A DNA stretch of 64,000 nucleotides from Gemmatimonadota bacterium. GTDB lineage: Bacteria; Gemmatimonadota; Gemmatimonadetes; Gemmatimonadales; Gemmatimonadaceae. The notes beneath the pieces are model-generated. The model worked only from the letters and a program-made list of their open reading frames with translations, made no database searches and had not been told where the DNA came from. Where the stretch lies: assembly GCA_003223455.1 (NCBI GenBank), contig QHVE01000036.1, positions 1 through 64,000 on the forward strand, given 5' to 3'. Positions 5,938-39,146 of this stretch are shown piece after piece. Every line of letters starts with the position of its first letter. Position 1 is the stretch's first letter. Made by a program: the position numbers and the translations under genes.

Positions 5938-5946
5938 GAGCAAGCC

Positions 5947-8481: not shown

Positions 8482-8571
8482 CGGCTGACCTCCGACGCTT
8501 CAAACCTTTTGCGGGCGCGGGGAATCCAAGTGCAGTGGCCATCTGCCGCCAACCCTCTGCTCTGGAGCGCC

Positions 8572-9555: not shown

Positions 9556-9589
9556 GTCAGCGTGTCGCGAGAGTGCGCGTTTCGCCAGA

Positions 9590-9994
9590 TCACAGTAGCA
9601 GCAGCCCCATTCTCGCCGCGGCGGTGACGGCTTCGGTGCGTGTCGACACATCGAGCTTGTCGAACAAAAGCTCGAGGTGCGTCTTCACCGTGTTCGTCGC
9701 AATCCCGAGGCGGGCTGCGATCTGCTTGTTGCCGAAGCCATCGGCCAGGAGCGCGAGGACCTCCCGCTCGCGTTGCGTGAGCACCGGCGCGTTCGCCGCG
9801 TCGCGATCGAGCACGCCGTTCACGCGCGATCCGCCGCGTCTTTCACGTGCAACGACCACCAGCTCGGCGTCGGCAGCGATATCCGCTACCGCGGCGCCGG
9901 CGTCGACCACCTCGAACGCCGGACTCGCTCGAAGCGCCGCAGCCAACGCCGCGCGCACGTCCTCCGACTCCGCAACGACCGCAACGCGTGTCAT
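9590..9994 (-). CDS. LuxR-type DNA-binding regulator with short degenerate receiver
   Basis: 134 aa. Residues about 70-134 are a LuxR/FixJ helix-turn-helix: LTQREREVLALLADGFGNKQIAARLGIATNTVKTHLELLFDKL has the classic pattern, split here around the GFGNKQIA turn. The N-terminal 65 aa look like a shortened receiver domain (VAVVAESEDVRAALAAAL); the usual acidic pocket is only partly kept and no clear phospho-acceptor Asp is seen, so control may not be by phosphorylation. It lies 33 bp downstream of the HtrA-like protease gene on the same strand and probably shares its promoter. Confidence 0.85.
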   Translation of the reverse strand: MTRVAVVAESEDVRAALAAALRASPAFEVVDAGAAVADIAADAELVVVARERRGGSRVNGVLDRDAANAPVLTQREREVLALLADGFGNKQIAARLGIATNTVKTHLELLFDKLDVSTRTEAVTAAARMGLLLL

Positions 9995-10027
9995 CCCGGA
10001 TACATAATCACGCCGCGCGCACGGACG

Positions 10028-10960
10028 TCATGCCGCCGCTCCTTCACGATCGCGGTCGCGTGGCTCGATCGTGATCTCCTGGGGCATGCCGCCGCGCAGG
10101 ACCGATGCGCGAAGCGAGCCACCCTCCGGCACGCTCGAGAGCGCGTCGAGCAGATCCGACGGGCGCGCCAGCGCGCGGCCGTCGACCGCGATCAACAGAT
10201 CGCCGACCAGAATGCCGGCAGCATCCGCCGCTTCGCCCTCGGCGATCGAGACGACGACCAGCCCGACGTCGTGGGTGAGGTTGTTCCGCTCGACGAGCGC
10301 GCTCCCGAGCGCGACCGGATGCACGCCCACGCCGATGAACGGACGACGAATGTGGCCGCGCGCGAGCAGCTCGTCGACGACGGGGTCCACGACGGACGCG
10401 GGCAGCGCGGCCGCGCCGCCGCGCGCGAACGCCGAGTTGTCGATGCCGATGACGCCACCCGACGCGGCGACGAGCGCTCCGCCGGAGAAGCCGTCGTACA
10501 CGGTGAGGTCGAGTCGAAGGACGCGGTCGAGCCGGGCGCCCGAGTCGCCGCGCCATCCTTCGATGTCCGCGCTGACGATCCCGAAGCTCGCGGTGACGTT
10601 GCGCCCTGGCCGGCCGACCGCCAGCACAAGCGACCCGACCTGTGCCGCGCTCGCGTCCGCCCGAGGTGCCGGAGCGGACTTCACCTCCGCTGCGCGCAAC
10701 ACGACGAGATCCGTGGCGGCGTCGCGGCCGGCGACCTGCGCGACGACGTCGTCCCCACTCGAAAGCTTCACGCGGACGTCCCCGTCGCGCCGAACCGTAT
10801 GACTTGCGCTGACGATGACGCCGTCGCGCCAGATCACGCCGCTCGACGGAATGCGCCGGCGCGCGTGGATCGCTACGACGTGGCCGCCGATCTGCTCGAC
10901 AGCGGCGGAGAGCCGCGACGAGAGCTCGGTGAGGGTGTTGGTGTTCTTGTCCGATGTCAT
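10028..10960 (-). CDS. HtrA/DegP-like trypsin-fold protease with one PDZ domain
   Basis: 310 aa. The ATG at 10960 has AGAGG with 7-nt spacing; a longer start at 11029 lacks support. The triad is readable: His54 in SASHTV, Asp84 in AATDLVVL, Ser159 in GFSGGAL. One PDZ domain follows (VGLVVVSIAEGEAADAAG). Unlike DegP/DegQ it has no signal peptide, membrane anchor or second PDZ, so it is probably cytoplasmic. The next gene is a LuxR-type regulator, and the divergent neighbour across 252 bp is an SPFH protein; this suggests a small protein-quality-control or membrane-stress module. The targets are unknown. Confidence 0.88.
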   Translation of the reverse strand: MTSDKNTNTLTELSSRLSAAVEQIGGHVVAIHARRRIPSSGVIWRDGVIVSASHTVRRDGDVRVKLSSGDDVVAQVAGRDAATDLVVLRAAEVKSAPAPRADASAAQVGSLVLAVGRPGRNVTASFGIVSADIEGWRGDSGARLDRVLRLDLTVYDGFSGGALVAASGGVIGIDNSAFARGGAAALPASVVDPVVDELLARGHIRRPFIGVGVHPVALGSALVERNNLTHDVGLVVVSIAEGEAADAAGILVGDLLIAVDGRALARPSDLLDALSSVPEGGSLRASVLRGGMPQEITIEPRDRDREGAAA

Positions 10961-11212
10961 GCAGGTGCCTCTGAGAGATGAGTGCACCCGAAGTGTGCGA
11001 CGACGCGTTGCATGGCGACCATCGGCCAAATGGGTGAGTCGTCATCCATGGTCGCTCTCAGAAGCGAAGCCCGACGATCCCGGCTATGGTGAGTAGCCGA
11101 GGCGGACCGTCGAGAATCCCGCCAGGCGACGTGCGAGCGCGCCCGGCAGCGATCGCCGGTACTTCTGGACCCCTGGTACGCGTGTAGTATCCATGAGGGA
11201 AGGAGGTAGACC

Positions 11213-12145
11213 ATGGCGATGCTTCCCGTAACCGTGTCGAACCAGGTCGTGCCGAGCGGCACGCGGGTGAACTTTCTCTCCGTGCTGGTGATGCTCGGCG
11301 TCACCGCGGTCGGTGGGCTCGGACTGCTCCTCGCCGGCAGCATCGGCTCGATCGTCGGCGCGGCCGTGCTCGGACTGCTGCTGGGAATGGCGCCGCAGGT
11401 GGCGCAGCAGTGGGAGCGCGCCGTCGTGCTGCGCTTGGGACGGTTCATCGGGCTGCGCGGACCCGGCCTGTTCTGGCGAATTCCCTTCGTCGACAGCGTG
11501 ACCGCGTGGGTCGACCAGCGCGTGATCACCACCGCCTTCGCCGCGGAGGAGACTCTCACCTCCGATACCGTGCCCGTGAACGTCGACGCCGTGCTCTTCT
11601 GGATGGTGCACGACGCCGAGCGGGCCGCGCTCGAGGTGCAGAACTACCCGCAGGCCGTGAGCTGGGCTGCGCAGACGGCGCTGCGCGACATCATCGGCCG
11701 CACGTCGCTCGCCGAGCTGCTGCACGGGCGCGAGCGGATCGAAGGCGAGCTCCAGGAGCTCATCGACGCGCGGTGCATGCCGTGGGGCGTCGCCGTCCAG
11801 GCGGTGGAGATGCGCGACATCATCATCCCCGCCACCCTTCAGGACGCGATGTCGCGCGAGGCGCAGGCCACCCGCGAGAAGCGCGCGCGCATCATCCTCG
11901 GCGAGGCCGAAGTGGAGATCGCGACGCTGTTCGAGGAAGCGTCGCACGTCTATCAGAAGAATCCCACCGCGCTGCAACTGCGCGCAATGAACATCCTCTT
12001 CGAGGGGATCAAGCAGAAGGGCGCGCTGATGATCGTGCCGAGCAGCGCGGTGCAGGAGATGGGGCTCGGCGGGATGATGGGGATGGCCGCGATGCAGCAG
12101 CAGGCGACGGAAGGCGGGCCAGCATCGGGAACGACACCTCGATGA
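11213..12145 (+). CDS. SPFH/stomatin-like (slipin) membrane protein
   Basis: 310 aa, with a strong AAGGAGG ribosome binding site before the ATG at 11213. Two hydrophobic stretches (about residues 20-58) anchor it. The SPFH core follows: ERAVVLRLGRFIGLRGPGLFWRIPFVD, split around GLRGPG, then VDQRVITT, the typical stomatin entry. It continues through VNVDAVLFWMVHDAERA and REAQATREKRARIILGEAEVE, the coiled-coil region that drives oligomer formation. Slipins form ring-like membrane microdomains and are often coupled to proteases of the NfeD/ClpP class. Here the partner gene is instead a divergent HtrA-like protease. The C-terminal tail is Gly/Met/Gln rich. Confidence 0.9.
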   Translation: MAMLPVTVSNQVVPSGTRVNFLSVLVMLGVTAVGGLGLLLAGSIGSIVGAAVLGLLLGMAPQVAQQWERAVVLRLGRFIGLRGPGLFWRIPFVDSVTAWVDQRVITTAFAAEETLTSDTVPVNVDAVLFWMVHDAERAALEVQNYPQAVSWAAQTALRDIIGRTSLAELLHGRERIEGELQELIDARCMPWGVAVQAVEMRDIIIPATLQDAMSREAQATREKRARIILGEAEVEIATLFEEASHVYQKNPTALQLRAMNILFEGIKQKGALMIVPSSAVQEMGLGGMMGMAAMQQQATEGGPASGTTPR

Positions 12146-12224
12146 GCATTGGCACCGGACAACAGAGGCGTAGATGCGCCGCGGCCACCACGAGTCTCGA
12201 TGATGCGAATAAAACGCGAGCGGA

Positions 12225-12653
12225 CTAGCGGCGCGTCTCCGGATGACGCGTGATCGACGCCGGCGGCTCGTCCGACCGCCGCATCGCGATCGCGATGATG
12301 GCCAGGAGCACCACGGCCGGATAGAGGCTCGCGGCAACGCTGTGGCGAACGACGATGTGCACCGTCATGGCGCCGAGCATGGCGCAGGAAAGCAGCATCG
12401 CGCCGATAGAGCAGGTCCACGGCATGACGTAGAGAAGCGCACCCACGACCTCCACCACGCCGGTGAAGTACCGGAACCACTGACCAAGGCCGATCTGTTC
12501 GAACATCACGACCCACGGAGAACCCCGTCCATTGGCGAACTTCTCCGCTCCCATGAGCACGAAGAAGAGAGCCACCCCTCCGCGCAGCACCCAACCGTCG
12601 AGGTCGGACGCGCGCCGGTTTCCGACGAGCCACTCGAGCGCACGCGACGTCAT
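12225..12653 (-). CDS. DoxX-family membrane protein
   Basis: 142 aa with four hydrophobic helices (about residues 25-40, 60-80, 88-105, 112-128). LRGGVALFFVLMGAEKF and WFRYFTGVVEVVGALL are typical DoxX motifs. The start at 12653 is set by an ATGA overlap with the upstream lipoprotein/membrane gene; the much longer open frame upstream is a shadow of that gene. DoxX proteins are small inner-membrane proteins linked to redox or thiol stress, with no defined reaction in most cases. It is translationally coupled to the preceding gene of unknown function. Confidence 0.85.
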   Translation of the reverse strand: MTSRALEWLVGNRRASDLDGWVLRGGVALFFVLMGAEKFANGRGSPWVVMFEQIGLGQWFRYFTGVVEVVGALLYVMPWTCSIGAMLLSCAMLGAMTVHIVVRHSVAASLYPAVVLLAIIAIAMRRSDEPPASITRHPETRR

Positions 12654-13435
12654 TGCCGATCGACTCGCGTTGACGGCGGAGCCAACGACGTCGGCGAAGT
12701 CGCGACTTTTCGCGCCGGTCGCCCCGCCCATCGTGTTGCATGATCCGACTCGCGGCCCGCGTCGATCCGACGACGCAACGCGGCCATCACCCAGAACAGC
12801 GCCATACCCGCGACAAGAAGCTTGGTCCGATGGTGCGTCCAGGGGACGCGCTGCGTGCGATAGCTCAGATGGCCATTGCCGACCCGGATCACCTCCAGGC
12901 TGATCGCATACCACTCGCCTACCATCACCGCGGCCCCGCTGACGAGGATCGACGTGAGAATGATTGCCGCGACGGCGACCACGGAATCGCGACCGCCATC
13001 GAGCGGAAAGTTGCGATTCACCCGCCCAGTCACGCCGTAGGCGACGAGAGCAAAGAGCGCAGCGAACGACAGCATCGCCAGCGCATCTCCCGCCACCGGT
13101 CGGTGCCTGAGTGACGCGCGAACGGTGTCGGCTGCCACCTCATGCGTGCGCGCGACGACGTTCAGCATCGCCGTGATGCACGAGTCGGTCGTACGGTCGT
13201 AGCTGGCGAACCCTTCGAAGTGCCCGGAATGCGGCGCATTGCGCGCGTCTGCGTATCTGATGCCGATGTCTTCGGCGCGGAGCGCATCGTCCCGGAGATG
13301 TCGGCGCGCGGCACGCACCCGCAGATCGAGCGCGGATGGCACCTCTGCTGGCCACGCGCACCGAGCGACTGGTCCTGGTCCGGCACAGCCGGCCAGATAG
13401 ACACTGGCCAGGATGACGGCTGTCAGTGCTCGCAT
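12650..13435 (-). CDS. Predicted membrane lipoprotein of unknown function
   Basis: 261 aa. It starts with a lipoprotein signal, VYLAGCAGP, with the lipidated Cys at 17. After a soluble stretch of about 100 aa come three transmembrane helices (about 117-137, 150-172, 207-222) and a basic C-terminal tail. I do not recognise the family. The stop overlaps the ATG of the DoxX gene (ATGA), so the two are made together. The combination of a lipobox with later membrane helices is odd; the N-terminal helix could be a plain signal anchor instead. Confidence 0.7.
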   Translation of the reverse strand: MRALTAVILASVYLAGCAGPGPVARCAWPAEVPSALDLRVRAARRHLRDDALRAEDIGIRYADARNAPHSGHFEGFASYDRTTDSCITAMLNVVARTHEVAADTVRASLRHRPVAGDALAMLSFAALFALVAYGVTGRVNRNFPLDGGRDSVVAVAAIILTSILVSGAAVMVGEWYAISLEVIRVGNGHLSYRTQRVPWTHHRTKLLVAGMALFWVMAALRRRIDAGRESDHATRWAGRPARKVATSPTSLAPPSTRVDRQ

Positions 13436-13797
13436 CGATTGGATCCGTGATCGACAGTGAGGCGCGGCGATCGTGGCGGAGGCGGAGAGCGCGGCCGATG
13501 CGGTCGAGAGCCGCGTAACCCAGCTTCAGCGCTTTGATTGCGAGCAGTCTACGAGACGCGCGTTAGGCTTGGCTCTCGAACCCATTACGATTCGGTTAGC
13601 TTCTCCGCTTGCGCTGCGGCCGTCGCACGCTCGGCGCCGATGGTCTGCCGGTGTCGATCACCATCTGAAGCTGAAGCCTGGCGGCCGAGCGCGCGCACGC
13701 CTCGAAGGCCGGACCGGCGGTCTCATTGCGCGATGCGCCGGGGCATCGGATACTCACGGACGCTGGCACCGGTCAGAAACGCTTCACGCCGAGTCGC
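13436..13797. other. Non-coding interval before the fructan operon
   Basis: 362 bp between the divergent lipoprotein gene and the sugar transporter. The open frames that cross it continue into downstream genes and show no conserved protein. It should hold the promoter of the fructan operon. I see no convincing LacI- or ROK-type operator; AACC-N10-GGTT inside the sequence around 13580-13597 is too weak to call. Confidence 0.5.
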
Positions 13798-15186
13798 ATG
13801 TCCCTGATCCCCGCCGAGACCGTCGTTCTGTCGCCGCCGTCGGTGCGGGCGAGGCCGATGGACGGCCGCATCGTCTACTGGGCGATCACCTCGGCGCTCG
13901 CCGGCTTCCTGTTCGGCTTCGACACCGTCGTGATCTCGGGCGCCGAGCAGACGATCCAGTCGCTCTGGGGATTGAGTCCCGGCGTCCACGGCATCGCGAT
14001 GGGTGCCGCGCTCTACGGCACGGTGGTCGGCTCGCTCGTCGGCGGCTGGCCGGCCGACCATTTCGGTCGCCGCGCCACGCTGCTCTGGATCGGCGTGCTG
14101 TACATCGTCTCCGCGATCGGATGCGCCTTCGCCTGGAACGTCGAGGTGTTCATCGCGGCGCGCATCGTCGGCGGGATCGGCATCGGCGTCTCGACCGTCG
14201 TCGCTCCGCTCTACATCTCCGAGATCGCGTCGCCGGCGCACCGGGGCAAGCTGGCCGCGATGTTCCAGTTCAACATCGTGCTCGGCATCGTCGTCGCGTT
14301 CGCCTCCAACGCGCTGCTCGCCGGCATCGGCGAGCACGCCTGGCGGTGGATGCTCGGCGTCGCCGCGATCCCCTCGGTGCTCTACACGCTGATGTGCCTC
14401 GGCATCCCGGAGAGCCCGCGGTGGCTGCTGACGCGCAAGGGCGATCGGGCGGCCGGCCTGCGCATGCTCGCGCTCGTCGAGCCCGACGCGACGCCCGCCG
14501 AGCTCGAGTCCATGGCCACGGCGATCGTCTCCGCCGCTTCCGAGCAGCGGAGCACACGGGGATTCTGGTCGATGCGGCTGCGCGTGCCGATAATGCTCGC
14601 CTTCCTCGTCGCGTTCTTCAATCAATTGTCGGGGATCAACGCGATCCTCTACTTCGCGCCGCGCATCTTCGCGATGACGGGACTGGGCGCTCGTGCCGCC
14701 CTCCTGCAGTCCGTCGGCATCGGCGTCACCAACCTCGTCTTCACCTTCGTCGGCGTCTGGCTGATCGACCGGCTCGGCCGACGCACGCTGCTGACGATCG
14801 GGGCCTACGGCTACCTCGTGTCGCTCGGAACCTGCGCCTGGGCGTTCTTCACCGGCCACTATGCGATCGTGCCGCTCTGCATCTTCGCCTTCATCGCCGC
14901 GCACGCGGTCGGACAGGGGACGGTGATCTGGGTGCTGATCTCGGAGATCTTCCCCACCCAGTACCGCGCCGCCGGCCAGTCGCTCGGCAGCACCACCCAC
15001 TGGGTGTTCGCCGCGGCGCTGACGACGGTGTTCCCCGCGATGGCCAGCGCCTTCGCGCCGGGCTACATCTTCCTGTTCTTCTGCGGCATGATGGCGCTCG
15101 AGCTGGTCTGGGTGCGCACGATGGTGCCCGAGACGAAGGGCGTGCCACTCGAGGAGATCCAGCGCCGGCTCGGAGTACAGGTGTGA
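13798..15186 (+). CDS. MFS sugar porter, probable fructose/fructo-oligosaccharide uptake
   Basis: 462 aa and 12 predicted membrane helices. It has sugar-porter family signatures: DHFGRRATLLW after helix 2, the PESPRWL motif before the central loop, DRLGRRTLL in the second half, and PETKGVPLEEI at the end. Start taken as the ATG at 13798 (MSLIPAE); a later ATG at 13858 (MDGRIVYW) is possible, and neither has a strong ribosome binding site. The gene overlaps the fructokinase start (GTGTGA) and heads an operon with GH32 fructanase, so the cargo is likely fructose or short fructans carried by proton symport. Confidence 0.9.
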   Translation: MSLIPAETVVLSPPSVRARPMDGRIVYWAITSALAGFLFGFDTVVISGAEQTIQSLWGLSPGVHGIAMGAALYGTVVGSLVGGWPADHFGRRATLLWIGVLYIVSAIGCAFAWNVEVFIAARIVGGIGIGVSTVVAPLYISEIASPAHRGKLAAMFQFNIVLGIVVAFASNALLAGIGEHAWRWMLGVAAIPSVLYTLMCLGIPESPRWLLTRKGDRAAGLRMLALVEPDATPAELESMATAIVSAASEQRSTRGFWSMRLRVPIMLAFLVAFFNQLSGINAILYFAPRIFAMTGLGARAALLQSVGIGVTNLVFTFVGVWLIDRLGRRTLLTIGAYGYLVSLGTCAWAFFTGHYAIVPLCIFAFIAAHAVGQGTVIWVLISEIFPTQYRAAGQSLGSTTHWVFAAALTTVFPAMASAFAPGYIFLFFCGMMALELVWVRTMVPETKGVPLEEIQRRLGVQV

Positions 15187-16073
15187 CCTCGTCGCCGGTC
15201 GTCGCCGGGATCGGCGAGATGCTGTGGGACGTCTATCCCGAGCGCGCCCACTTCGGCGGTGCTCCCGCCAACTTCGCCTGCCACGCGGCGAGCCTCGGCG
15301 CCGAGTCGTGGATGGTCAGCGCCGTGGGCGACGACGCGCTCGGCGACCGTGCCCTCGATTCGCTGCGCGCACTGGGAGTGCGATGCGACCACGTCGAGCG
15401 CGACCCGGTGCATCCGACGGGACGCGTCCTCGTCACGCTCGATGCCGCCGGCCAGCCGCAGTACGAGATCGAACGGGACACAGCCTGGGATCACCTCGCG
15501 TGGAGCGACGAGCTCGCGCGGTTCGCGGCGCGCTGCGACGCCGTCTGCTTCGGAACGCTCGGCCAGCGCTCCCCGACATCGCGTTCGACGATCCGCTTCT
15601 TCCTCGAAGCGGTGCCCCCAGACGCGCTGCGCGTGTTCGACGTCAACCTGCGCCAGCAGTTCTACGATCGTGACGTCATCGAGGCATCGCTCGCGCTGGC
15701 GTCGGCCGTGAAGCTGAACGACGAGGAGCTGCCGATCATCGCCGAGCTGTGCGGGATCGAGTCCGGCGCGCCGCGCGAGACGGTGCGCACGTTGATGACG
15801 CGGTACGGGCTGCGGATCGCGGCGCTCACCCGCGGTCCGCGCGGCGCGCTGCTCTTCGGCGAGGAGACCGACGACGAGTGTGCCGCGCCTCGCTCGACAG
15901 CGGTGGACACGGTGGGCGCGGGCGACTCCTTTACGGCCACGATGGTGATGGGCGTCCTCCACGGGCTGCCGCTCGACCGGATCAACCGGCACGCCAACGC
16001 CGTCGCGTCGTTCGTGTGCTCCCAAGCGGGGGCGACACCCGCCATCCCCGACGCCCTGCGGACCGTCGCATGA
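15183..16073 (+). CDS. PfkB-family fructokinase
   Basis: 296 aa. It starts at a GTG overlapping the transporter stop (GTGTGA); this start gives the expected N terminus VVAGIGEMLWDVYP. PfkB signatures are present: GGAPANFACHAASLG near the N terminus (substrate pocket) and DTVGAGDSFTATMVMG near the C terminus, with the catalytic Asp in GAGD. It would phosphorylate fructose released by the GH32 enzyme to fructose-6-phosphate using ATP in the cytoplasm. Its stop overlaps the next start (ATGA). The family also contains ribokinases, but the fructan context favours fructose. Confidence 0.9.
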   Translation: MTSSPVVAGIGEMLWDVYPERAHFGGAPANFACHAASLGAESWMVSAVGDDALGDRALDSLRALGVRCDHVERDPVHPTGRVLVTLDAAGQPQYEIERDTAWDHLAWSDELARFAARCDAVCFGTLGQRSPTSRSTIRFFLEAVPPDALRVFDVNLRQQFYDRDVIEASLALASAVKLNDEELPIIAELCGIESGAPRETVRTLMTRYGLRIAALTRGPRGALLFGEETDDECAAPRSTAVDTVGAGDSFTATMVMGVLHGLPLDRINRHANAVASFVCSQAGATPAIPDALRTVA

Positions 16074-17572
16074 AGCGCATCGTCTTCATCCTCGCGCTGC
16101 TCGCCGCCGTCGCCCCGGCTGGTGCGCAGAACGAGCCGTTCCGCCCGCAGTTCCACTTCAGTCCGGAGCGGAACTGGATGAACGATCCCAACGGGCTCGT
16201 CTACCTCGACGGGGAGTGGCACCTCTTCTACCAGTACAACCCGTTCGGCGACCGGTGGGGCCACATGAGCTGGGGGCACGCCGTGAGCCGCGACCTCGTG
16301 CGCTGGCAGCATCTCCCGCTGGCGATGGGCGAGGAGAATGGCGTGATGATCTTCTCGGGGAGCGCCGTGGTGGATGTGAAGAACACGAGCGGTTTCGGCA
16401 CCGGCGGGCGACCGCCGATGGTGGCGATCTACACGGGGCATCGCGAGGGACGGCAGGACCAGCGCATCGCCTACAGCAACGACCGCGGGCGCATATGGAC
16501 GAAGGTGCCCGAGCCCGTGCTCGACCTGCAGATGGCCGACTTCCGCGACCCCAAGGTGTTCTGGCACGATGGCACCTCGCGCTGGATCATGGCCGTCTCG
16601 CTGCCGAACGAGCACGTGATCCAGTTCTACGCCTCGCCCGACCTGAAGCGGTGGACGAAGGTCGGCGCATTCGGGCCCGCCGGTGCGACCGGTGGCCAGT
16701 GGGAGTGCCCCGACCTCTTCCCGCTCGCGGTCGAGGGCGGCGGCACGAAGTGGGTGCTGATCGTGAACATCAATCCCGGCGGCGTCGCCGGCGGGTCGGG
16801 GACGCAGTATTTCGTCGGCGACTTCGACGGCTCGCGCTTCGTCGCCGACAGCGGCGCGTCGGGGACGCGCTGGGCCGACCACGGCTCCGACTTCTACGCG
16901 GCGGTCTCGTGGAACGGCGTTCCGCGCAGCGACGGCCGGCGCGTGTGGATCGGATGGATGAGCAACTGGAAGTACGGGCAGGACGTGCCGACCTCCCCCT
17001 GGCGCAGCGCGATGACCGTCCCGCGCGCGCTGAGCCTGCGGAGGACTCCCGCTGGCCCCGTGCTCGTCCAGACCCCCGTGCGCGAGCTCGACGCACTGCG
17101 CACGTCGACGGCACACCGGTTCGACGGCGGCACGCTCGCCGCTGCCAACGCGTGGCTGGCGACGCAGGGCGACCTGCCCTCGCTGCTCGATATGGAGCTC
17201 GCGTTCGACGGCGTACGCGACGCCACGCCGTTCGACATCCAGCTCGGCAGCGGCACCGACGAGCGCACCGTGGTGCACGTCGATCCGGCGGCGCATCAGC
17301 TCGTGCTCGACCGGTCCCGCGCGGGACGGACGACCTTTCATCGTGACTTCACCCTGCGCCACCCCGCCCCGCTTCGCGTCGTCGGCGGCGAGGTGCGCGT
17401 ACGGTTGCTGCTCGACGCCTCGTCGCTCGAAGTGTTCGCGCAGGGCGGCGAGACGGTGCTGACCGACCTCGTTTTCCTTTCGCCCGGCCCACGCCGGCTC
17501 TCGCTCGCGGCCGATGGCGCATCGCCGCGCGTACACTCGATCGTCGTGAACCCGCTCGCAGTGGTGCGGTGA
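16070..17572 (+). CDS. Secreted GH32 fructan hydrolase (levanase/inulinase/invertase type)
   Basis: 500 aa, start fixed by ATGA overlap with the fructokinase gene. A signal peptide ends at AGAQNE (about residue 20). The three GH32 catalytic motifs are readable: WMNDPNG with nucleophile Asp39, FRDPK with Asp160 as transition-state stabiliser, and WECPDL with acid/base Glu212. The last 150 aa form the usual beta-sandwich (LRVLLDASSLEVFAQ-like region). It would release fructose from fructans or sucrose outside the cytoplasm for uptake by the MFS protein. Exo/endo mode cannot be told from sequence. Confidence 0.95.
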   Translation: MKRIVFILALLAAVAPAGAQNEPFRPQFHFSPERNWMNDPNGLVYLDGEWHLFYQYNPFGDRWGHMSWGHAVSRDLVRWQHLPLAMGEENGVMIFSGSAVVDVKNTSGFGTGGRPPMVAIYTGHREGRQDQRIAYSNDRGRIWTKVPEPVLDLQMADFRDPKVFWHDGTSRWIMAVSLPNEHVIQFYASPDLKRWTKVGAFGPAGATGGQWECPDLFPLAVEGGGTKWVLIVNINPGGVAGGSGTQYFVGDFDGSRFVADSGASGTRWADHGSDFYAAVSWNGVPRSDGRRVWIGWMSNWKYGQDVPTSPWRSAMTVPRALSLRRTPAGPVLVQTPVRELDALRTSTAHRFDGGTLAAANAWLATQGDLPSLLDMELAFDGVRDATPFDIQLGSGTDERTVVHVDPAAHQLVLDRSRAGRTTFHRDFTLRHPAPLRVVGGEVRVRLLLDASSLEVFAQGGETVLTDLVFLSPGPRRLSLAADGASPRVHSIVVNPLAVVR

Positions 17573-17745
17573 GTTGGTTCGTGAGATGGTACAGCGAGGG
17601 GGTGCCATACGGCCAGCTGGTCGTCGTGCGCGACGGCCGCATCGTCCGCGAGTTCTTCCACGACCTCCAGGATCCCTCGCACAACGTCAATCGCGGACGG
17701 CACGCCCCCGACGACCTGGCCGCTCTCCGAGGCGACGACCGCTAG
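17569..17745 (+). CDS. Small 58-aa protein coupled to the GH32 gene
   Basis: The GTG at 17569 overlaps the GH32 stop (GTGA), and the frame runs to TAG at 17743. The product begins VSWFVRWYSEGVPYGQ, continues with LVVVRDGRIVREFFHDLQD and ends RGDDR. About 86% of codons end in G or C, as in the neighbours, which supports real coding. There is no membrane segment; the middle is beta-like and the end is charged. I do not recognise a family. It could be an accessory of the fructan operon or the surviving N terminus of a longer gene. The overlap matches the GTGTGA and ATGA couplings upstream. Confidence 0.6.
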   Translation: MSWFVRWYSEGVPYGQLVVVRDGRIVREFFHDLQDPSHNVNRGRHAPDDLAALRGDDR

Positions 17746-17849
17746 CCGAACAACCTCGCGCGTGAGACGAGCCGCGGCCGCTCGGTCGGATTGGCGCCGC
17801 GATCGGAATGCGTGCAAGTTCTTCCGAACGACGTCATGGAGCACGCGCC

Positions 17850-18908
17850 GTGAAATTCGCTGTCGCCGTATTCGCCCTCGTCTGCTCGGGGGTGTACGCC
17901 TGCTCCGAGCCGACGGAGCCGGTCGCCCAGAGCATCGAAGAATTCGATGGGCGTCTGGAGTCGTTGCGCCAGCAGGCTCACATTCCGGCGATCTCCGTGG
18001 CGATCGCCGAGAATCAGCGCATCGCGTGGTCGAAGGGGTACGGAGCGGCGGATCTTTCGACCAACCGCATGGCTTCCGACACCACCGTCTACCATTTCGC
18101 ATCGCTCACGAAACCGTTCGCGTCCGCCATCCTGCTGCAGTTGAGCGAGGAAGGTCGCATCTCCCTCGACGACCCGGTGGCCAACTATGGCATCGTGTTG
18201 CCGAGCCCTCCGAGCGGCGTGATTCGGATTCGGCACTTGCTGAGCCACACGTCGAGCGGAGTACCGGGGACCACGTACAGCTACGATGGCGATCGATACA
18301 GCCTGCTCGACTCGGTGATCGCGCGAGCCACGGGCGGATCGTTCGCGACGGAACTCGTGCGGCGTATTCTCGGCCCCCTCAGGCTCACCAGCATCGCCCC
18401 CAATCTCGGGGCGGCGGCGTTCAACGCCACGGGGCTCGATCGTTCGGCCTACGGGGCGAATCTTGCGCGCGGATACACCTACGCCAACGGAGCGTACGTC
18501 CCCACCGCATATCCCACGCTTTTCAGCTCTGCGGCTGGCCTGACAGGGTCCGTCCTCGACCTCGCTGCATTCTCGATGGCGCTGGACCGAGGCGATGTGA
18601 TCAGCCGGGCGTCGAGAGAGCTCGCATTCGCGCCGACCATATCGGCATCGGGTGATACGCTGCCGTACGGGCTCGGCTGGTTCTCGACGAGATACAAGGG
18701 GGAGCGCATCGTGTGGCACTACGGCCTCTGGACGGCCATCTCGTCGCTCATCATCAAGGTGCCGAGCCGCAACTTGACGTTCGTCGTCCTCGCGAACACG
18801 GACGAGCTTTCGTCGCCCTATCCGCTCGGCGCTGGCAGGCTCGACTCCTCTCCGTGGGCGCGCGCGTTCCTCGGTTCCTTCGTCTTCGGCACGGCGCGGT
18901 TGCCATGA
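17850..18908 (+). CDS. Serine beta-lactamase-like hydrolase, lipoprotein
   Basis: 352 aa from the GTG at 17850 (GGAG 8 nt upstream); this start gives a proper lipoprotein signal, VCSGVYACSE with the lipidated Cys at 18. The beta-lactamase/esterase fold (class C, Pfam Beta-lactamase) shows SLTK at 85-88 (nucleophile Ser85, Lys88), Tyr145 in the YxN position (here Tyr-Asp-Gly, so the Asn is lost), and IRHLLSHTSSG. Such proteins are mostly peptidases or esterases rather than antibiotic-resistance enzymes. It stands alone between the fructan operon and the convergent multicopper oxidase. Confidence 0.85.
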   Translation: MKFAVAVFALVCSGVYACSEPTEPVAQSIEEFDGRLESLRQQAHIPAISVAIAENQRIAWSKGYGAADLSTNRMASDTTVYHFASLTKPFASAILLQLSEEGRISLDDPVANYGIVLPSPPSGVIRIRHLLSHTSSGVPGTTYSYDGDRYSLLDSVIARATGGSFATELVRRILGPLRLTSIAPNLGAAAFNATGLDRSAYGANLARGYTYANGAYVPTAYPTLFSSAAGLTGSVLDLAAFSMALDRGDVISRASRELAFAPTISASGDTLPYGLGWFSTRYKGERIVWHYGLWTAISSLIIKVPSRNLTFVVLANTDELSSPYPLGAGRLDSSPWARAFLGSFVFGTARLP

Positions 18909-31589: not shown

Positions 31590-31804
31590 TCGCTGCGACG
31601 CATCGCACGCAGAAGGATCACAGCACGCTGCTCGAGTGTTACCAAGCGCCAGACGAGGCAACGCTTCTCGCGGTGATGAGTGAGCCGGTCAAGCGGCGGG
31701 AGCGCTCGCAACGCGAGCCAACCGGGCCGCGTGAACGCGGACACTTGCGGCTCGTGGGCTGGAGAAACGGCACCACGAACAGCACCACGGTTCCACAGAA
31801 CGAA

Positions 31805-31837
31805 ACGGTCCGCGCATCGCAGTGATGTGCGGACCGT
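31805..31837. terminator. Rho-independent terminator hairpin
   Basis: A 14-bp stem with one mismatch (ACGGTCCGC...GCGGACCGT) and a 5-nt loop. On the minus strand it is followed by TTCGTT and lies 12 bp after the 3' end of the tRNA-Pro fragment, so it is best read as the terminator of the ancestral tRNA-Pro gene, left behind when the island integrated. Confidence 0.7.
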
Positions 31838-31846
31838 GACTTAACC

Positions 31847-31890
31847 ATCGGGACGGCGGGATTTGAACCCGCGACCCCCTGAACCCCATT
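31847..31890. repeat. Left attachment site: 44-bp copy of the tRNA-Pro 3' half
   Basis: Identical to 34916-34959. It covers the acceptor 3' strand, T arm, variable loop and anticodon-loop part of tRNA-Pro(GGG), minus-strand sense, and then diverges. No 5' half is present, so it is not a functional tRNA. Confidence 0.85.
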
Positions 31891-31909
31891 GTCCGTTCAG
31901 GGGGTCGCG
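31870..31909. repeat. Perfect 15-bp inverted repeat at the left attachment site
   Basis: CGCGACCCCCTGAAC (31870-31884) and GTTCAGGGGGTCGCG (31895-31909) around a 10-nt loop. The left arm is inside the tRNA fragment; the right arm is the same tRNA segment in the opposite orientation, just inside the island. Confidence 0.85.
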
Positions 31910-31985
31910 ATCACGGCAACTTGACGGCTTTTCATAGGGACACCGAGCATCGGCGCCGGTTTCGAAAAGACAAAATATCGGAGAG

Positions 31986-32014
31986 AAACGGGTCAAACGG
32001 GTAGTCAAACGGGT
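31986..32014. repeat. Three direct copies of AAACGGGT
   Basis: Copies at 31986-31993, 31995-32002 and 32007-32014, about 100 bp inside the left end of the island, in locally AT-richer DNA. The position suits arm-type integrase or excisionase sites; this is inference. Confidence 0.6.
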
Positions 32015-32085
32015 AAAGCATGTTTGTGATGGACGATGCGAGATGACCGAGTTTCTAGCATCTTGAGCGACCCCAGATACTGGGG

Positions 32086-32502
32086 TTGGCTGCCGCGCTG
32101 CTGGCGTGGAAGCAGTTCGATATCGGGTGGGTCGAAACCTTCCCGCGAGACGCGCCCGTCGCGGTCGGAACGGTCGTCGCCGTCGTGATCCGACACCTCG
32201 GCTTCTGGTCCCTGAACGGTTGCCGTGTCCTCTACACCGTCGGAAGCCCGGATGATGTCGCTCGGTTTGGCTTCGCCTACGGAACGCTGACCAACCACGC
32301 CGAGAGCGGCGAGGAGCTGTTCGAGGTCTTCATCGACCCGCGGACGGAGGACGTCGTCTACCGAATTCGGGCAACGTCTACACCACAAGCGATGCTCGCC
32401 CGATTCGGTCAGCCGATCGTGCGAGCGCTCCAAGCACGATTCCGAGAGCATTCGGTCGCCGCGATGAAGCGCGCAACGCGCTCCACGGGCGTCCGAGCAT
32501 GA
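32086..32502 (+). pseudogene. DUF1990-family protein, N-terminally truncated
   Basis: 138 codons from a TTG. The sequence from LAWKQFDIGWVE through VGTVVAVVIRHLGFWSLNGCRV, split at the middle, and FGFAYGTLTNHAESGEELF is characteristic of DUF1990 (UPF0548). Family members usually carry about 40-50 more residues at the N terminus; upstream in this frame a stop occurs at 32056 and I find no missing part in other frames. It lies just inside the left end of the island, so truncation by integration or decay is likely. If translated it may still fold in part. Confidence 0.65.
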
Positions 32503-32577
32503 GCATCTACGTGGAGATTCTTGTCCGGGCGCCAGTGGATGCGCTCTGGATGACGCGGTGAGGCGCAACCGTAGTCG

Positions 32578-33597
32578 TCACCGCGTGCCCGTGCTGCGTT
32601 CCTCGGCGCGCTTCACGACACTGTGAACGGCCTCCACCACCGCATCTGGTGCGTCGTACTGAATGAAGTGATCGGCCCCAGCGACGATGCGTTGGCTGCC
32701 GCGTGACGAGCGGTGCGCCAATTCGCCGCTCAACTCGGTCCATGCCCGCAAGAGGCGCTCGCCCCGCGCGGTGTCGTCGAACGGCTTCCCGCGCGTGAGC
32801 ACGATGAGCGGCACGGAGTCGAGGCCACCGGCCTCACGTGCGATGGCGGCGCTGCCTCGTTCCGGCGCCTCCTGCCCGGCTTCCCAGATCGATTTCCGCT
32901 GCCGCCGCAAGCTGGTGATCGTGGCCCACTCCCGATCCGTCAACATCGGCGGTCTCGATCCTTGATCGCGCATCAACCAGCGCCACAAGCCGGTGTTCCG
33001 AACGATGAAGTCCACCGTATGAACGATCACCGGCGGAAGATTCGGCCCCCCTCCCCGCGGCATGTCGGGTATGCGCGTCCCAACGTCTTCGTTGGACGGG
33101 TCGACGAGCACGAGCCCCACGACCTCCGCCGGGTATCGTGCATTGAAGACGCGGACGTGGTACCCGCCCAGCGAGTGGCCGACGAGTACGTATGGCGGTG
33201 CGACGTGCGCGGCGGCGAGGAGGCGATGGAGGTCCGACACGACCGAGTCGCTGAAGCGTTTGCCGGGGGCCGGATCGCTCCAGCCATTGCCGGCACGGTC
33301 GTACCAGCACGTCCGATTCGTCGTCGCGAGGCGCCGCTGGACGGGCGTCCAGGAGTAGCCCGGCTGCCAGAAACCACTCTCGAGCACGACGGTGGGACTG
33401 CCCGAGCCGCTGCAGGAGAGGTTCAGCGACCGACCGCCGACGTCCATGGAGGTGCCAATTTGCGGAAACCGTTGTCGATCCCGCCACTCGGCGATCCTCA
33501 CGTAAACGAGGCCATATGCCGGGAGGGCGAGTGGGAGAAGCCACAGCAGGCGCTTCCATCGCGGTGAGGGCTTGGGCTGAACGACTTTTGCGTCCAT
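32578..33597 (-). CDS. Alpha/beta hydrolase with N-terminal membrane anchor
   Basis: 339 aa. One hydrophobic helix (about 17-34) anchors it. The hydrolase fold follows: VVLESGFW (oxyanion region), CWYDRAGNGWSD, nucleophile elbow GHSLGGYH with Ser142, LVDPSNED with the acid, and GADHFIQYD with the catalytic His. It resembles bacterial membrane-tethered esterases/lipases of the haloalkane dehalogenase-like superfamily. It lies inside the tRNA-Pro island, divergent from a PadR regulator across a short intergenic region, and may be controlled by it. The substrate is unknown. Confidence 0.85.
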   Translation of the reverse strand: MDAKVVQPKPSPRWKRLLWLLPLALPAYGLVYVRIAEWRDRQRFPQIGTSMDVGGRSLNLSCSGSGSPTVVLESGFWQPGYSWTPVQRRLATTNRTCWYDRAGNGWSDPAPGKRFSDSVVSDLHRLLAAAHVAPPYVLVGHSLGGYHVRVFNARYPAEVVGLVLVDPSNEDVGTRIPDMPRGGGPNLPPVIVHTVDFIVRNTGLWRWLMRDQGSRPPMLTDREWATITSLRRQRKSIWEAGQEAPERGSAAIAREAGGLDSVPLIVLTRGKPFDDTARGERLLRAWTELSGELAHRSSRGSQRIVAGADHFIQYDAPDAVVEAVHSVVKRAEERSTGTR

Positions 33598-33655
33598 GAA
33601 TCCTCGGCCTGGTTGCCGTCAGGGGGCACGTGCCTTAGAATTCCCATGGCGGAGC

Positions 33656-33686
33656 GAGTATATCCACAGTGGAAGGAGTATATCCA
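33656..33686. promoter_or_regulatory. Tandem operator GAGTATATCCA x2
   Basis: Two identical 11-bp copies at 33656-33666 and 33676-33686, start-to-start 20 bp (about two helical turns), in the AT-richest part of the region between the divergent hydrolase and PadR genes. Probably the PadR autoregulatory operator overlapping one or both promoters. Confidence 0.6.
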
Positions 33687-33717
33687 TTATGAGACTACGT
33701 TGCAAGAGCGTCGCCCC

Positions 33718-34074
33718 GTGAAGCGAGGGCGCGACGTAGAGGAACACCTGCCGATGTCGTCGGCGAGCTTCCACATCCTGCTCGCGCTGGCGGGCGGTGC
33801 CCAGCACGGGTACAGCATCATGCGGGAGATCCGGGAGTCGACCGATGGCCGCATCCGCGTTGCGCCAGCGACGCTCTACCGACTGATTGGCGGGCTGCTC
33901 CGGTCGGAGCTCATCGAGGAGTTCGAACCGGGGGATCCGTCGTACGAGGACGAGCGGCGCAAGTACTATCGCCTCACGACGTTTGGACGACGCGTGCTCA
34001 CGGAGGAGACGAAACGCCTCGTCGCCACCGTCGAGCTGGCGCGCGAGCGCCGCATCATCCCGCGTCTCTCATGA
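33718..34074 (+). CDS. PadR-family transcriptional regulator
   Basis: 118 aa from the GTG at 33718, giving the usual N terminus DVEEHLPMSSASFHILLAL; upstream codons to 33613 would run through the operator and are unlikely. The winged helix is clear: GAQHGYSIMREIRE, VAPATLYRLIGGLL (recognition helix), then the beta wing YEDERRKYYRLTTFGRRVL. PadR proteins repress transporter or stress genes and release DNA on ligand binding. The stop overlaps the next start (ATGA), so it is made with the membrane protein that follows. Confidence 0.9.
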   Translation: MKRGRDVEEHLPMSSASFHILLALAGGAQHGYSIMREIRESTDGRIRVAPATLYRLIGGLLRSELIEEFEPGDPSYEDERRKYYRLTTFGRRVLTEETKRLVATVELARERRIIPRLS

Positions 34075-34694
34075 TCTCGCGGAAGCACCGCGGTGCGAGA
34101 GCGCTCTCCGTCGTCGCCCACGACGTCCTCATTCGCGCGTACCCTGCATCGTTTCGTGCGGAGTACGCGAACGAGATGCGGTGGGCATTCTCACACCTTT
34201 GCGCGGACGCCATCGCATCACGCGGCCTGGCAGGGTTGCTCGAGGTGTGGATCGACACGCTCGTTGATTTTCCGGCGAGCGTCATCGCGACGCACCGCGA
34301 GCGCTGGCAAGAGCGCGCGCCGCTGTCATGGGCAACGCCCTTGATGCTCACCGTACTGCCCGTCGCGGTGGTGGCCAGGACGATGGTCGACGGCGCCGAT
34401 GTCGCCGCGTCTTTCCTGCACTTGAGCAGCGTCGCGGCGTACTGCGGGGCCATTCGTCTATGGCTCGCCATGCGTGGAGCGACATCCGCGGGACAACGCA
34501 TCGTTTTCGTGATTTCCTGCGCCGCCGCCAGCGCCACGTTCCTGCGCGATACCCGGATGTGCATGGATGCCCTGCGCCAGTCGCCGGCATCGATCGCGAT
34601 CGGATTCGCGACGATCGCGGTTCCGGTGGCGGCGGCATTGGCGAGCCTCCGGGCAGCCCACGCGTATCTCGAAGTGAGAAAACCAATAACGTGA
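34071..34694 (+). CDS. Membrane protein of the PadR-associated type
   Basis: 207 aa; ATGA overlap with padR. The N-terminal 75 aa (LIRAYPASFRAEYANEMRWAF) match the cytosolic prefix region that is often found before permease domains next to PadR regulators (YPxxFRxxYxxEM). Then four hydrophobic helices follow (about 88-105, 110-130, 142-158, 172-195). No ABC-transporter MacB or FtsX domain is present, so this is only the short form. Function unknown; a PadR-controlled membrane-stress role is plausible. Confidence 0.75.
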   Translation: MISRKHRGARALSVVAHDVLIRAYPASFRAEYANEMRWAFSHLCADAIASRGLAGLLEVWIDTLVDFPASVIATHRERWQERAPLSWATPLMLTVLPVAVVARTMVDGADVAASFLHLSSVAAYCGAIRLWLAMRGATSAGQRIVFVISCAAASATFLRDTRMCMDALRQSPASIAIGFATIAVPVAAALASLRAAHAYLEVRKPIT

Positions 34695-34825
34695 CCAACT
34701 GGCGCCTTCTGCGCACAACGACGCACTGGTCGGATGCCAGCGGACTGGCGCTGTGGGTCGGTATGGCGATGTTCTTCACCGCTATCGGCGCGGACAAGAA
34801 GAATCGGCCTCAGAAGTTGCCTTAG
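34691..34825 (+). CDS. 44-aa single-pass membrane protein
   Basis: The GTG at 34691 overlaps the previous stop (GTGA). The product starts VTNWRLLRTTTHWSD, has one hydrophobic helix (LALWVGMAMFFTAIGA) and ends in a basic tail DKKNRPQKLP. Codon use matches its neighbours. It is the third gene of the padR unit, and a terminator hairpin follows 14 bp after its stop, which supports a real 3' end. Family not recognised. Confidence 0.65.
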   Translation: MTNWRLLRTTTHWSDASGLALWVGMAMFFTAIGADKKNRPQKLP

Positions 34826-34839
34826 ATCTTTGCACGAAA

Positions 34840-34870
34840 GAGCGCCGCGAGCACTCAGCTCGCGGCGCTC
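34840..34870. terminator. Strong terminator hairpin, probably bidirectional
   Basis: A perfect 13-bp stem GAGCGCCGCGAGC / GCTCGCGGCGCTC with loop ACTCA. It ends the padR unit on the plus strand (followed by CTGTTTCG) and the tRNA-Pro transcript on the minus strand (followed by TTTCGT). Confidence 0.85.
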
Positions 34871-34915
34871 CTGTTTCGCTCGCTTCAAACTGCTTGTCTT
34901 ATGATTTTTTGAAGA

Positions 34916-34959
34916 ATCGGGACGGCGGGATTTGAACCCGCGACCCCCTGAACCCCATT
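34916..34959. repeat. Right attachment site within tRNA-Pro
   Basis: 44 bp identical to 31847-31890, lying in the 3' half of the intact tRNA-Pro plus two flanking bases. Confidence 0.85.
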
Positions 34960-34990
34960 CAGGTGCGCTACCGGGCTGCGCTACGTCCCG
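34918..34990 (-). tRNA. tRNA-Pro (anticodon GGG)
   Basis: 73 nt, all arms pair: acceptor CGGGACG/CGTCCCG, D stem GCGC/GCGC, anticodon stem CCTGA/TCAGG with loop ATGGGGT (anticodon GGG), T stem GCGGG/CCCGC with loop TTCAAAT. The 3' CCA is not encoded. Its 3' half is duplicated at 31849-31890. Confidence 0.96.
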
Positions 34991-35088: not shown

Positions 35089-36282
35089 TCACTGCCGCGA
35101 CAGCGACAGCACGTCCGCCCACGACGCAATCCGCCCGGCCCGAAACGCCCGCACCGTCTGCTCGATCGACCCGAATACCTCCATCGACCGCCCCGCCGCG
35201 CTCTGTTGGGTGAACTTGACCGTGGTGTCGCTCGGATAGAACCGCCCGCCCTGGAACGAGCGCACGAACATGCTCGTCGAATCGACCGGCAGCGTCGCGA
35301 CGTTCTCGAAGAAACGCGTGGCCTCGTCGCCTTGCTCGAACAGATACTGCTCGACGTTCGAGACGTAGAACGTCGTCACCTTCGCGTTGTGCGCGCGCGC
35401 CCACTGTCCGACCGCGCGCAGCGCCTTCGGCCCCGCGAAGTCGCCGGTGAGGGGAACGATCAGGTTGCGCTCCTCCATGTCCTTCAGCGCGCGAAATGCC
35501 TTCTCGCTGCCGAGGTAGCTCCAGTTCACGCCGACGCTGTCGGTCTCGGTCATCATCGCCTGATACGTCGGCCCTCTGAATCCGCCGCCGTAGTAGCCAC
35601 GATAGGCGTAGGGTCCCGGATTCCGGCACTCGGAGCTGTAGCCGTACGTCAGATCCGGTCCCTGCGTGAAGAAGGCGCCGTACACGCACCCGAGCGACAC
35701 GTGCTCGCTGTCGCTGAGGGCGAATCGATGTACATCGGTGAGCCGCGTGACGATTGCGCGCAGGTTCGCGCGGTATCGCGCGCTGTCCGCCGGCTGCCTG
35801 GCCAGCGCCTCGAACAGCGCGCTCGCCGTCGCGGTGCTGTCCACGCCGGTGAGCGGCGCGCGCGCGAACAGCTTCGCCAGGAAGTCGGCGCGATCCTTCG
35901 ACAGCTCGAGCAGCGCCTTGTACATCAGATGCTCGACCGCGTTCTGGTGCCGGATGTCGACGATGAACGCGATGCTCGGCCGAAACGCAGCGACGAGCGT
36001 GAAGTTCTGATCCGGGGCGACGCCGATGTACACCCCGCCCGGCGGCACGCGCCGCACGAGCTTCGGGATCACCCACTGCAGCGCGGTCTCGTTGGAGACG
36101 AAGTTCTCGGAGCGGAAGGTGCCCCACGGCTCCGAGGACTCCGTCACCAGTCGCCAGAAGGTGCTGTCGGCGAGGCGCGCGGGCACGCCCTGCGCACTGG
36201 CGGTGGTCGCTCGCGACGCCGTGGCGAGGAGCGCGGCGACGAACAAGCCGCGTCGTACGCGGCATGCGGATCGAGTCGTCAT
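35089..36282 (-). CDS. Secreted protein of unknown function, paralogue A
   Basis: 397 aa from the ATG at 36282 with a signal peptide ending near ASAQGV; the frame is open further upstream but only through simple repeats and the gene in the other direction. The conserved core is WRLVTESSEPWGTFRSENF, split at the Pro, then GGVYIGVAPDQNFTLVAAF, IAFIVDIRHQNAVEHLMY and later LIVPLTGDFAGPKALRAVG and FYVSNVEQYLF. The GVxPDQN...VDIRxQN segment resembles a Rossmann methyltransferase SAM site, but the protein is exported, so this is only a fold guess. It shares about two thirds of its residues by eye with the product of 37917-39146. Confidence 0.8.
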   Translation of the reverse strand: MTTRSACRVRRGLFVAALLATASRATTASAQGVPARLADSTFWRLVTESSEPWGTFRSENFVSNETALQWVIPKLVRRVPPGGVYIGVAPDQNFTLVAAFRPSIAFIVDIRHQNAVEHLMYKALLELSKDRADFLAKLFARAPLTGVDSTATASALFEALARQPADSARYRANLRAIVTRLTDVHRFALSDSEHVSLGCVYGAFFTQGPDLTYGYSSECRNPGPYAYRGYYGGGFRGPTYQAMMTETDSVGVNWSYLGSEKAFRALKDMEERNLIVPLTGDFAGPKALRAVGQWARAHNAKVTTFYVSNVEQYLFEQGDEATRFFENVATLPVDSTSMFVRSFQGGRFYPSDTTVKFTQQSAAGRSMEVFGSIEQTVRAFRAGRIASWADVLSLSRQ

Positions 36283-36534
36283 GGTTGCAGTCTCACCAGA
36301 GGGCCGCGCCGCGTCCAGATGGCGGCCCACGCCGGCCGGCACGCGCCCGGGTTTGCCGCTCGTCCCGACACCATTGCCGCGCGTCCTGACCTTCCGCGAC
36401 GCGGGAATGCTCCGGCGACTCACCGAGTCTGTCAGCCCGCCACGCTCGTCGTCAGGCAGAGCGACTGGTGGCGCGTGCGCTCGCGACGAGCGTGCGTGCC
36501 GACCCACCGAGCCTGAGCAAGATCGGAGAATGCA

Positions 36535-37916: not shown

Positions 37917-39146
37917 CTACTGCCTCGACACCCCAATCACCGCCGTCCACGATCCGAGCCGTCCCTCGCGCTGCGCACGAAGCGTCTCGGCGATGGAGCT
38001 CGTGAGCTGCAGCGAGCGGCCGTTCGGGCTCTGCGGGCGCAGCATGAGCAGTGTGTCGGCGCTGAGGAATCGGCCGCCGGCGAACGAGCGCACGAACGTG
38101 CTCGTGGAATCGATCGGCAGCGTCGCGACGTTCTCGTAGAAGCGTTGCGCCTCGTCGCCCTGCTGGAACAGGTACTGCTCGACGTTCGACACGTAGAACG
38201 TCGTCACTCTGGCGCCGCGCGCGCGCACCCAATCGCCGACGGCGCGCAGCGTGCGCGGGCCGGCGAAGTTACCTGTGAGCGGCACGATGAGGTTGCGCTC
38301 CTGCATCGACTTGAGCGTCCGGAAGCGCGACTCGCTGCCGAGGTAGCTCCAGTTCGTCCCCGCGCTGTCGGTCTCGACGATCATCCCCTGGTACGTCGGC
38401 ATACGGAAGCCGAACCGCCCCATGCCGCCCCCAGGTCCGGGACCCATCGCTCCACCGCCGTAGCCGTAGCCATAGGGCCCCGGGTTGCGACACTCGGAGG
38501 AGTAGTTGTACGTGAGGTCGGGACCCTGCGAGAAGAACGCGCCGTACACGCAGCCGAGCGACACGCGCTCGCTGTCGCTCAGCGCGAACTTGTGCACGTC
38601 CGTGAGCCGCGTGACGATCGCGCGCAGGTTGTCGCGGTAGCGTGCGCTGTCGGCGGGTTGCTTGGCCAGCGCCTCGAACAGCTGCTCCGCCGTCGACGTC
38701 GTGTCGACCCCCTGAAGGGGTGCGCGCGCGAACAGCCGGGCGAGAAACTCGGCGCGATCCTTCGACAGCTCGAACAGCGTCTTGTACATCAGATGCTCCA
38801 TCGCGTTCTGATGTCTGATGTCGACGATGAACGCGATGCTCGGCCGCACGGCCGCGACGTAGGTGAAGTTCTGGTCGGGCGCGACGCCGAGGTACACACC
38901 GCCCGGAGCGACACGGCGCGTCAGCTCGGGGATCACCCACTGGAGCGACGTCTCGTTGGAGACGAAGTTCTCGGAGCGGAAAGTGCCCCACGGCTCCGAG
39001 TACTCGTTCACCAGTCGCCAGAACGTCGTGTCGGCGAGGCGGCTCGGTACCCCCTGCCCCGCTCCCCGCGCGACCGGAAGCACGCACGCCACGGCGAGCG
39101 CGCAACGCACGAGTCTGCGACGGAGGCTGATCGAGAGGGGGCGCAC
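37917..39146 (-). CDS. Secreted protein of unknown function, paralogue B
   Basis: 409 aa from a GTG at 39146; signal peptide ends near GAGQGV. It is closely related along its whole length to the product of 35089-36282: the same WGTFRSENFVSNET, GVAPDQNFTYVA, VDIRHQNAMEHLMYK, LIVPLTGNFAGP and FYVSNVEQYLF blocks. The main difference is a Gly-rich insertion (GPGPGGGMGRFGF) in the middle. The two copies flank the cupredoxin and the small lipoprotein, so the cluster arose by duplication. Function unknown; an envelope role is likely from the signal peptide. Confidence 0.8.
   Translation of the reverse strand: MRPLSISLRRRLVRCALAVACVLPVARGAGQGVPSRLADTTFWRLVNEYSEPWGTFRSENFVSNETSLQWVIPELTRRVAPGGVYLGVAPDQNFTYVAAVRPSIAFIVDIRHQNAMEHLMYKTLFELSKDRAEFLARLFARAPLQGVDTTSTAEQLFEALAKQPADSARYRDNLRAIVTRLTDVHKFALSDSERVSLGCVYGAFFSQGPDLTYNYSSECRNPGPYGYGYGGGAMGPGPGGGMGRFGFRMPTYQGMIVETDSAGTNWSYLGSESRFRTLKSMQERNLIVPLTGNFAGPRTLRAVGDWVRARGARVTTFYVSNVEQYLFQQGDEAQRFYENVATLPIDSTSTFVRSFAGGRFLSADTLLMLRPQSPNGRSLQLTSSIAETLRAQREGRLGSWTAVIGVSRQ

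Follow-up and report, generated by a model that had tools for sequence, protein, structure and literature searches.

In the 64,000-nucleotide stretch of contig QHVE01000036.1 analysed here (the window), a segment of 3.07 kb lies between an intact tRNA-Pro(GGG) gene and a detached copy of the 3' half of this gene. We consider it probable that this segment, called the island in the following, is the remnant of an IntA-type element and forms the younger layer of a two-element tandem at tRNA-Pro(GGG). IntA is a label coined here for the family of tyrosine integrases located at this tRNA. The reading is carried by a perfect direct repeat, by the lack of an integrase between its copies, by an integrase scrap just outside of them, by an element end shared with other genomes and by the use of the same tRNA as a hotspot in relatives. 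The island is delimited by the following features:

34917-34990, minus strand: intact tRNA-Pro(GGG), the target gene (ARAGORN)
34916-34959, minus strand: repeat copy within the tRNA gene, the tRNA-side attachment core (perfect 44-bp match to 31847-31890)
31847-31890, minus strand: detached tRNA 3' half, the far attachment core (the only other copy in the genome)
34840-34870, minus strand: terminator-like hairpin 3' of the intact tRNA, attributed to the island (sequence inspection)

The perfect direct repeat of 44 bp (31847-31890 and 34916-34959, 3069 bp from start to start) covers the tRNA from its anticodon loop to its 3' end; this tRNA is the sole one detected by ARAGORN in the 64-kb window. 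Boundaries that both carry the tRNA 3' end as a direct repeat are characteristic of a tRNA island. In the whole genome, a draft of 4.96 Mb in 127 contigs with 96% completeness, just these two copies were detected (up to three mismatches over 41 bp). The preliminary description of the window had linked a detached tRNA 3' half to intact tRNA-Pro(GGG) 3.07 kb away by a perfect 44-bp repeat and had regarded this as the hallmark of tRNA-targeted site-specific integration; we arrive at the same result, and a site-specific integrase probably placed the segment at tRNA-Pro. The second element with the same attachment core that it proposed to search for was not present in this genome at the same mismatch limit.

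Between the repeat copies no recombinase was detected, and none of the five open reading frames (ORFs) located there belongs to a relaxase or integrase family of Pfam, so that an integrase gene inside, as known from tRNA islands, is missing. A profile search with IntA likewise revealed no integrase remnant above noise within the island or at the end next to the tRNA. Genome-wide, the Phage_integrase family (PF00589) is represented at three loci, all on other contigs. By NCBIfam these are XerD and an integron integrase, both above the curated cut-offs, and a third protein matching XerC best and scoring slightly under the cut-off. Serine recombinases (Resolvase, PF00239) gave no match in the genome. 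The integron integrase is encoded on contig C23:748-1344 (L055) and reaches 408 bits with TIGR02249 (cut-off 265). A tRNA gene is not the usual target of the integron integrase IntI.

The statement of the preliminary description that no recombinase is present is correct for the interval between the repeats but does not hold for its surroundings, where an integrase scrap follows just outside the left repeat:

approximately 31610-31711, plus strand: C-terminal scrap of an IntA-family tyrosine integrase, KDHSTLLECYQAPDEATLLAVMSEPVKRRE (IntA hidden Markov model)

The hidden Markov models (HMMs) were built first from five integrases located at tRNA-Pro(GGG) in relatives and then from eight, including three from contigs of a viral catalogue. 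With the eight-protein HMM, the scrap obtained an E-value of 6.5e-6 and the next best of all window ORFs of at least 25 amino acids one of 0.93. The five-protein HMM gave the scrap 16.0 bits (window E-value 1.2e-4), compared to at most 7.5 bits among 6191 reversed ORFs used as control. Judged by its position, a tyrosine within the scrap is presumed to be the catalytic one. The scrap starts shortly after the stop codon of the preceding gene (31589) and ends about 135 bp left of the detached core, which its 3' end faces. This arrangement recurs elsewhere: in G002, G058 and G185, IntA lies antisense and directly 3' of the intact tRNA, in the orientation of the scrap, and in the viral locus L168 directly 3' of a detached core. 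In total, IntA beside the core was observed at five of 57 distinct core copies, including the window, whereas in G005 the integrase is located at the far end of the island instead. The tRNA-Pro core is also carried by the IMG/VR contigs L166-L171, and IntA integrases are encoded in L167, L168 and L170; therefore, some IntA elements may be proviruses.

The sequences around the far core contain several elements expected of an attachment site:

31912-31963, minus strand: conserved element-end blocks CCGTCAAGTTGCCGTG and AAACCGGCGCCGATGC, common to the window and G159; the first block also in G008
31986-32013, minus strand: three direct repeats of CCGTTT type in tandem, two with the sequence ACCCGTTTGAC (repeat search)
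31870-31884/31895-31909: perfect inverted repeat of 15 bp, spaced by 10 nt, spanning far core and island end
31765-31808, minus strand: two CCGTTT-type repeats on the opposite side of the far core, next to the scrap and assigned to the older element (repeat search)
31806-31837, minus strand: hairpin resembling a terminator, with a T-rich stretch behind it, beyond the far core, the presumed end of the older element (sequence inspection)

The far end of the island could be aligned to that of G159, a member of another genus, with a score of 55, compared to a mean of 6.9 and a maximum of 22 in 1000 shuffles. An exact-pattern search for the island end in 179 genomes of the family recovered only the window and G008, in which the contig ends 34 bp past the core. 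The repeats at 31986-32013 are likely arm-type integrase sites of this far end, whose sequence still bears the marks of an IntA-type element. The inverted repeat is unique in the window (perfect, at least 14 bp, loop of at most 12 nt) and possibly represents the core-binding sites of the integrase. At the tRNA-side end of the island no CCGTTT repeat was found, while in G185 and L168 both sides, that of IntA and the far one, carry repeats of one sequence type. Consequently, the tRNA-side attachment site of the island looks incomplete. A hairpin with a T-rich tail after the core is a common feature of these sites, as it was observed for 21 of 26 intact and 21 of 31 detached copies; the controls gave 0/26 and 3/31, respectively, for upstream sequences and 36/300 for random stretches of the window.

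Beyond the window, tRNA-Pro(GGG) is an integration hotspot in this family and in neighbouring ones, with element types that can be told apart by their arm repeats. Starting from 60 relatives and later including the whole family, 24 detached tRNA-Pro halves from 20 genomes were collected, the window being one of them. A strict pattern found a detached half in at least 15 of the 179 family genomes, a lower bound, since copies with C at one position are missed. Most detached copies in other genomes start at the anticodon loop as well. The element ends fall into several types, many with tandem repeats of their own. The comparison of the arms omitted G035:C460 and G185:C210:178 (contig end, or not recovered in the examined stretch) as well as the degenerate or 5'-half copies G013:C10:19408, G046 and G049. 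In G046 (L049, G046:C28) and G049:C95, copies of the tRNA-Pro 5' half and not of the 3' half are located near the intact gene. In L146 (G120:C1:40000-59999), two detached halves at 9991 and 14261, 4.27 kb apart, have very similar arms with GGGGGACGAT repeats, which identifies the pair as two related elements in tandem. The integrase-less island of G022 at the same tRNA (L041, G022:C15:66000-85999, positions 4249-18300, 14 kb) presumably encodes, judging its ORFs by eye, a PadR and ABC-permease unit, a nucleotidyltransferase-like (AbiEii-like) protein and a large helicase/primase-like protein.

The order tRNA, core, cargo, far arm, core, terminator and integrase end points to two IntA-type elements in tandem, and the position of the integrase scrap outside the left repeat would make the island the younger layer. 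The order of events, IntA as acting enzyme and the present immobility are what we infer from this arrangement. First, an older IntA element would have occupied tRNA-Pro(GGG). A younger element would then have entered between the tRNA and the older one by means of an IntA-type integrase acting on the tRNA 3' half, and would have rebuilt the tRNA with its own 3'-half copy and terminator. Later, the older element would have been deleted down to the last approximately 33 integrase codons, its terminator and arm sites. The younger one would have lost its integrase together with the tRNA-side arm sites and suffered a cut in its DUF1990 gene, keeping the hydrolase and the PadR unit. Only an incoming IntA-family integrase could, at best, still mobilise such a relic.

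Several observations weigh against this reconstruction. The draft genome could conceal an integrase, and the scrap comprises only about 33 residues with a modest score. No IntA element was found that combines precisely this arm sequence with its integrase, and G159 and G008, which have a similar island end, gave no IntA match in the stretches examined there. The clustering of CCGTTT, which on the minus strand occurs seven times in 64 kb, five of them within approximately 250 bp (31765-32012), speaks for the tandem, but this motif was picked after inspecting the sequence. Finally, a strict empty site was not found in a close relative. The left flank, a Rieske gene cluster, is conserved in several relatives of the genus but not beside tRNA-Pro, and therefore no true empty site is at hand. 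Six of these conserved loci contain no core copy (up to three mismatches over 26 bp), and a tRNA scan of four of them revealed no tRNA-Pro. In G007, the nearest relative on the right flank, the contig ends before the tRNA. Synteny was also approached by the gene at 40363, but its homologue near the Rieske cluster in G003 and G008 is only 40% identical and was discarded as too distant.

The strongest alternative, which we nevertheless regard as rather unlikely, is that the segment, a minimal satellite or cassette, never had an integrase of its own and would owe its cut-and-paste movement to a neighbouring or visiting IntA acting in trans. The adjoining IntA scrap and the CCGTTT-type arm repeats on both sides of the far core would fit to this, as would the composition of other islands at this tRNA. 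If an island is counted as two neighbouring core copies on one contig in the same direction, eleven are available: G000 (the window's, 3.07 kb), G011 (2.88 kb), G043 (1.15 kb), G070 (3.50 kb), G101 (7.55 kb), G120 (4.27 kb), G051 (6.89 kb), G022 (14.0 kb), G013 (12.9 kb), G005 (32.9 kb) and G185 (4.37 kb). A tyrosine integrase was found inside three of them (G013, G005 and G185, truncated in the latter), and the other eight, ranging from 1.1 to 14 kb and including that of the window, have no PF00589 or PF00239 match on the island. However, this share is probably an overstatement because draft genomes favour short islands, long ones being broken over contigs, and the surplus of short integrase-free islands is thus in part an assembly bias. 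Moreover, a satellite moved in trans does not readily account for a tRNA-side end without CCGTTT repeats, given their presence on both sides in G185 and L168, or for a DUF1990 gene that is cut as in decay. The loss of the integrase and of the arm repeats of that end, together with the cut cargo gene, favours a remnant over an element built for movement in trans. The preliminary description had left the choice between a remnant and a cassette moved in trans; a remnant or dependent element is retained here, but the description was incomplete, as it overlooked the two-element tandem indicated by the IntA scrap at 31610-31711; the 15-bp inverted repeat and the arm-type direct repeats were absent from it as well.

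A wider form of the same idea, which we consider quite doubtful, would make tRNA-Pro(GGG) a site of accretion throughout Gemmatimonadaceae, where the lack of an integrase is by design in most small islands and IntA-type integrases move them in trans. Besides a minimal cargo, such modules would carry only a core, their arm repeats and a terminator to replace that of the tRNA, and their movement would be left to integrases of neighbouring or visiting elements, phage-borne ones included.

An origin of the detached half without site-specific recombinase, through a partial tandem duplication or through homologous recombination over the tRNA, is very improbable: no integrase lies inside the island and a 44-bp repeat could in principle support homologous recombination, but the break at the anticodon loop corresponds to most detached copies of other genomes, and the flanks contain attachment-type inverted and direct repeats and an integrase scrap. 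An assembly artefact fusing two contigs at a common tRNA 3' half is hardly credible either, for although the genome is a draft and some contigs of relatives stop at or near the repeat (e.g. G008 and G001), only two repeat copies exist in the genome and the scrap and arm repeats are placed as an integrated tandem predicts.

As an integrase-less relic resembling a cis-mobilizable element (CIME), the island represents a known kind of arrangement. A review on integrative and mobilizable elements (PMC5704250) describes a path of three steps, in which an element integrates, decays to a CIME and is then joined by a second one through accretion. Like the CIMEs presented there, the island lacks integration and transfer genes, retains both attachment cores and stands in tandem, at the same gene end, with an element of the same specificity, here represented by the IntA scrap and the CCGTTT repeats past the far core. 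It differs from them in that the neighbour itself is decayed, the tRNA-side arm repeats are missing and no conjugative relative was identified. Its putative attachment sites have direct and inverted repeats at the far end and no CCGTTT repeats at the tRNA-side end. In Dehalococcoides, tandem islands at ssrA include 15 without an integration module, which are discussed as cis-mobilizable in PMC3146451. According to the same paper, these islands are also arranged in tandem at one RNA gene and each bounded by a direct repeat of the gene's 3' end, but they involve a serine recombinase and tmRNA instead of a tyrosine integrase and tRNA-Pro(GGG). The closest counterparts are the IntA elements of G002, G058 and G185, which share with the window the target, the layout of the repeats and an integrase placed and oriented in the same way with respect to the core; they have kept integrase sequence beside the tRNA (truncated in G185), whereas the island has none.

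Judged by titles, no paper on Gemmatimonadota islands at tRNA genes was found that treats the tRNA-Pro(GGG) site. The window provides a detailed example of tandem accretion and decay at a single tRNA; for its phylum, again by titles, no paper on such islands was found. Scans relying on integrases only would overlook most of the small islands seen at tRNA-Pro(GGG). The present analysis names a testable set of an integrase family (IntA), a target (tRNA-Pro(GGG)) and candidate binding repeats of the CCGTTT type.

The five ORFs of the island are:

32086-32502, plus strand: DUF1990 gene without approximately 35 N-terminal positions (Pfam PF09348, E=2.9e-33, profile positions 36-156 of 157)
32578-33597, minus strand: alpha/beta hydrolase of 339 amino acids (Pfam PF12697, E=4.3e-18)
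33613-34074, plus strand: PadR-family regulator (Pfam PF03551, E=1.3e-12)
34071-34694, plus strand: protein of 207 amino acids without family match, overlapping the PadR gene by ATGA
34691-34825, plus strand: ORF of 44 amino acids, overlapping the gene of the 207-amino-acid protein by GTGA

By Pfam, the cargo corresponds to the hydrolase, PadR unit and broken DUF1990 gene listed in the preliminary description, and stop codons are located immediately upstream of the DUF1990 fragment. The GC content is 64.2% in the island, compared to 68.2% and 67.9% in the flanks. Among 60 relatives, the cargo is accessory and patchy, as is typical of a tRNA island: the hydrolase has only distant homologues (best identity 44%) and the 207-amino-acid protein only weak matches in five genomes besides its own. 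The same cargo at the same place without the tRNA duplication, which would have spoken against integration, was not seen in these relatives. To the right of the tRNA, two DUF7790 paralogues are encoded at 35092-36477 and 37920-39146, and they are likewise paired in the relative G007 (C321).

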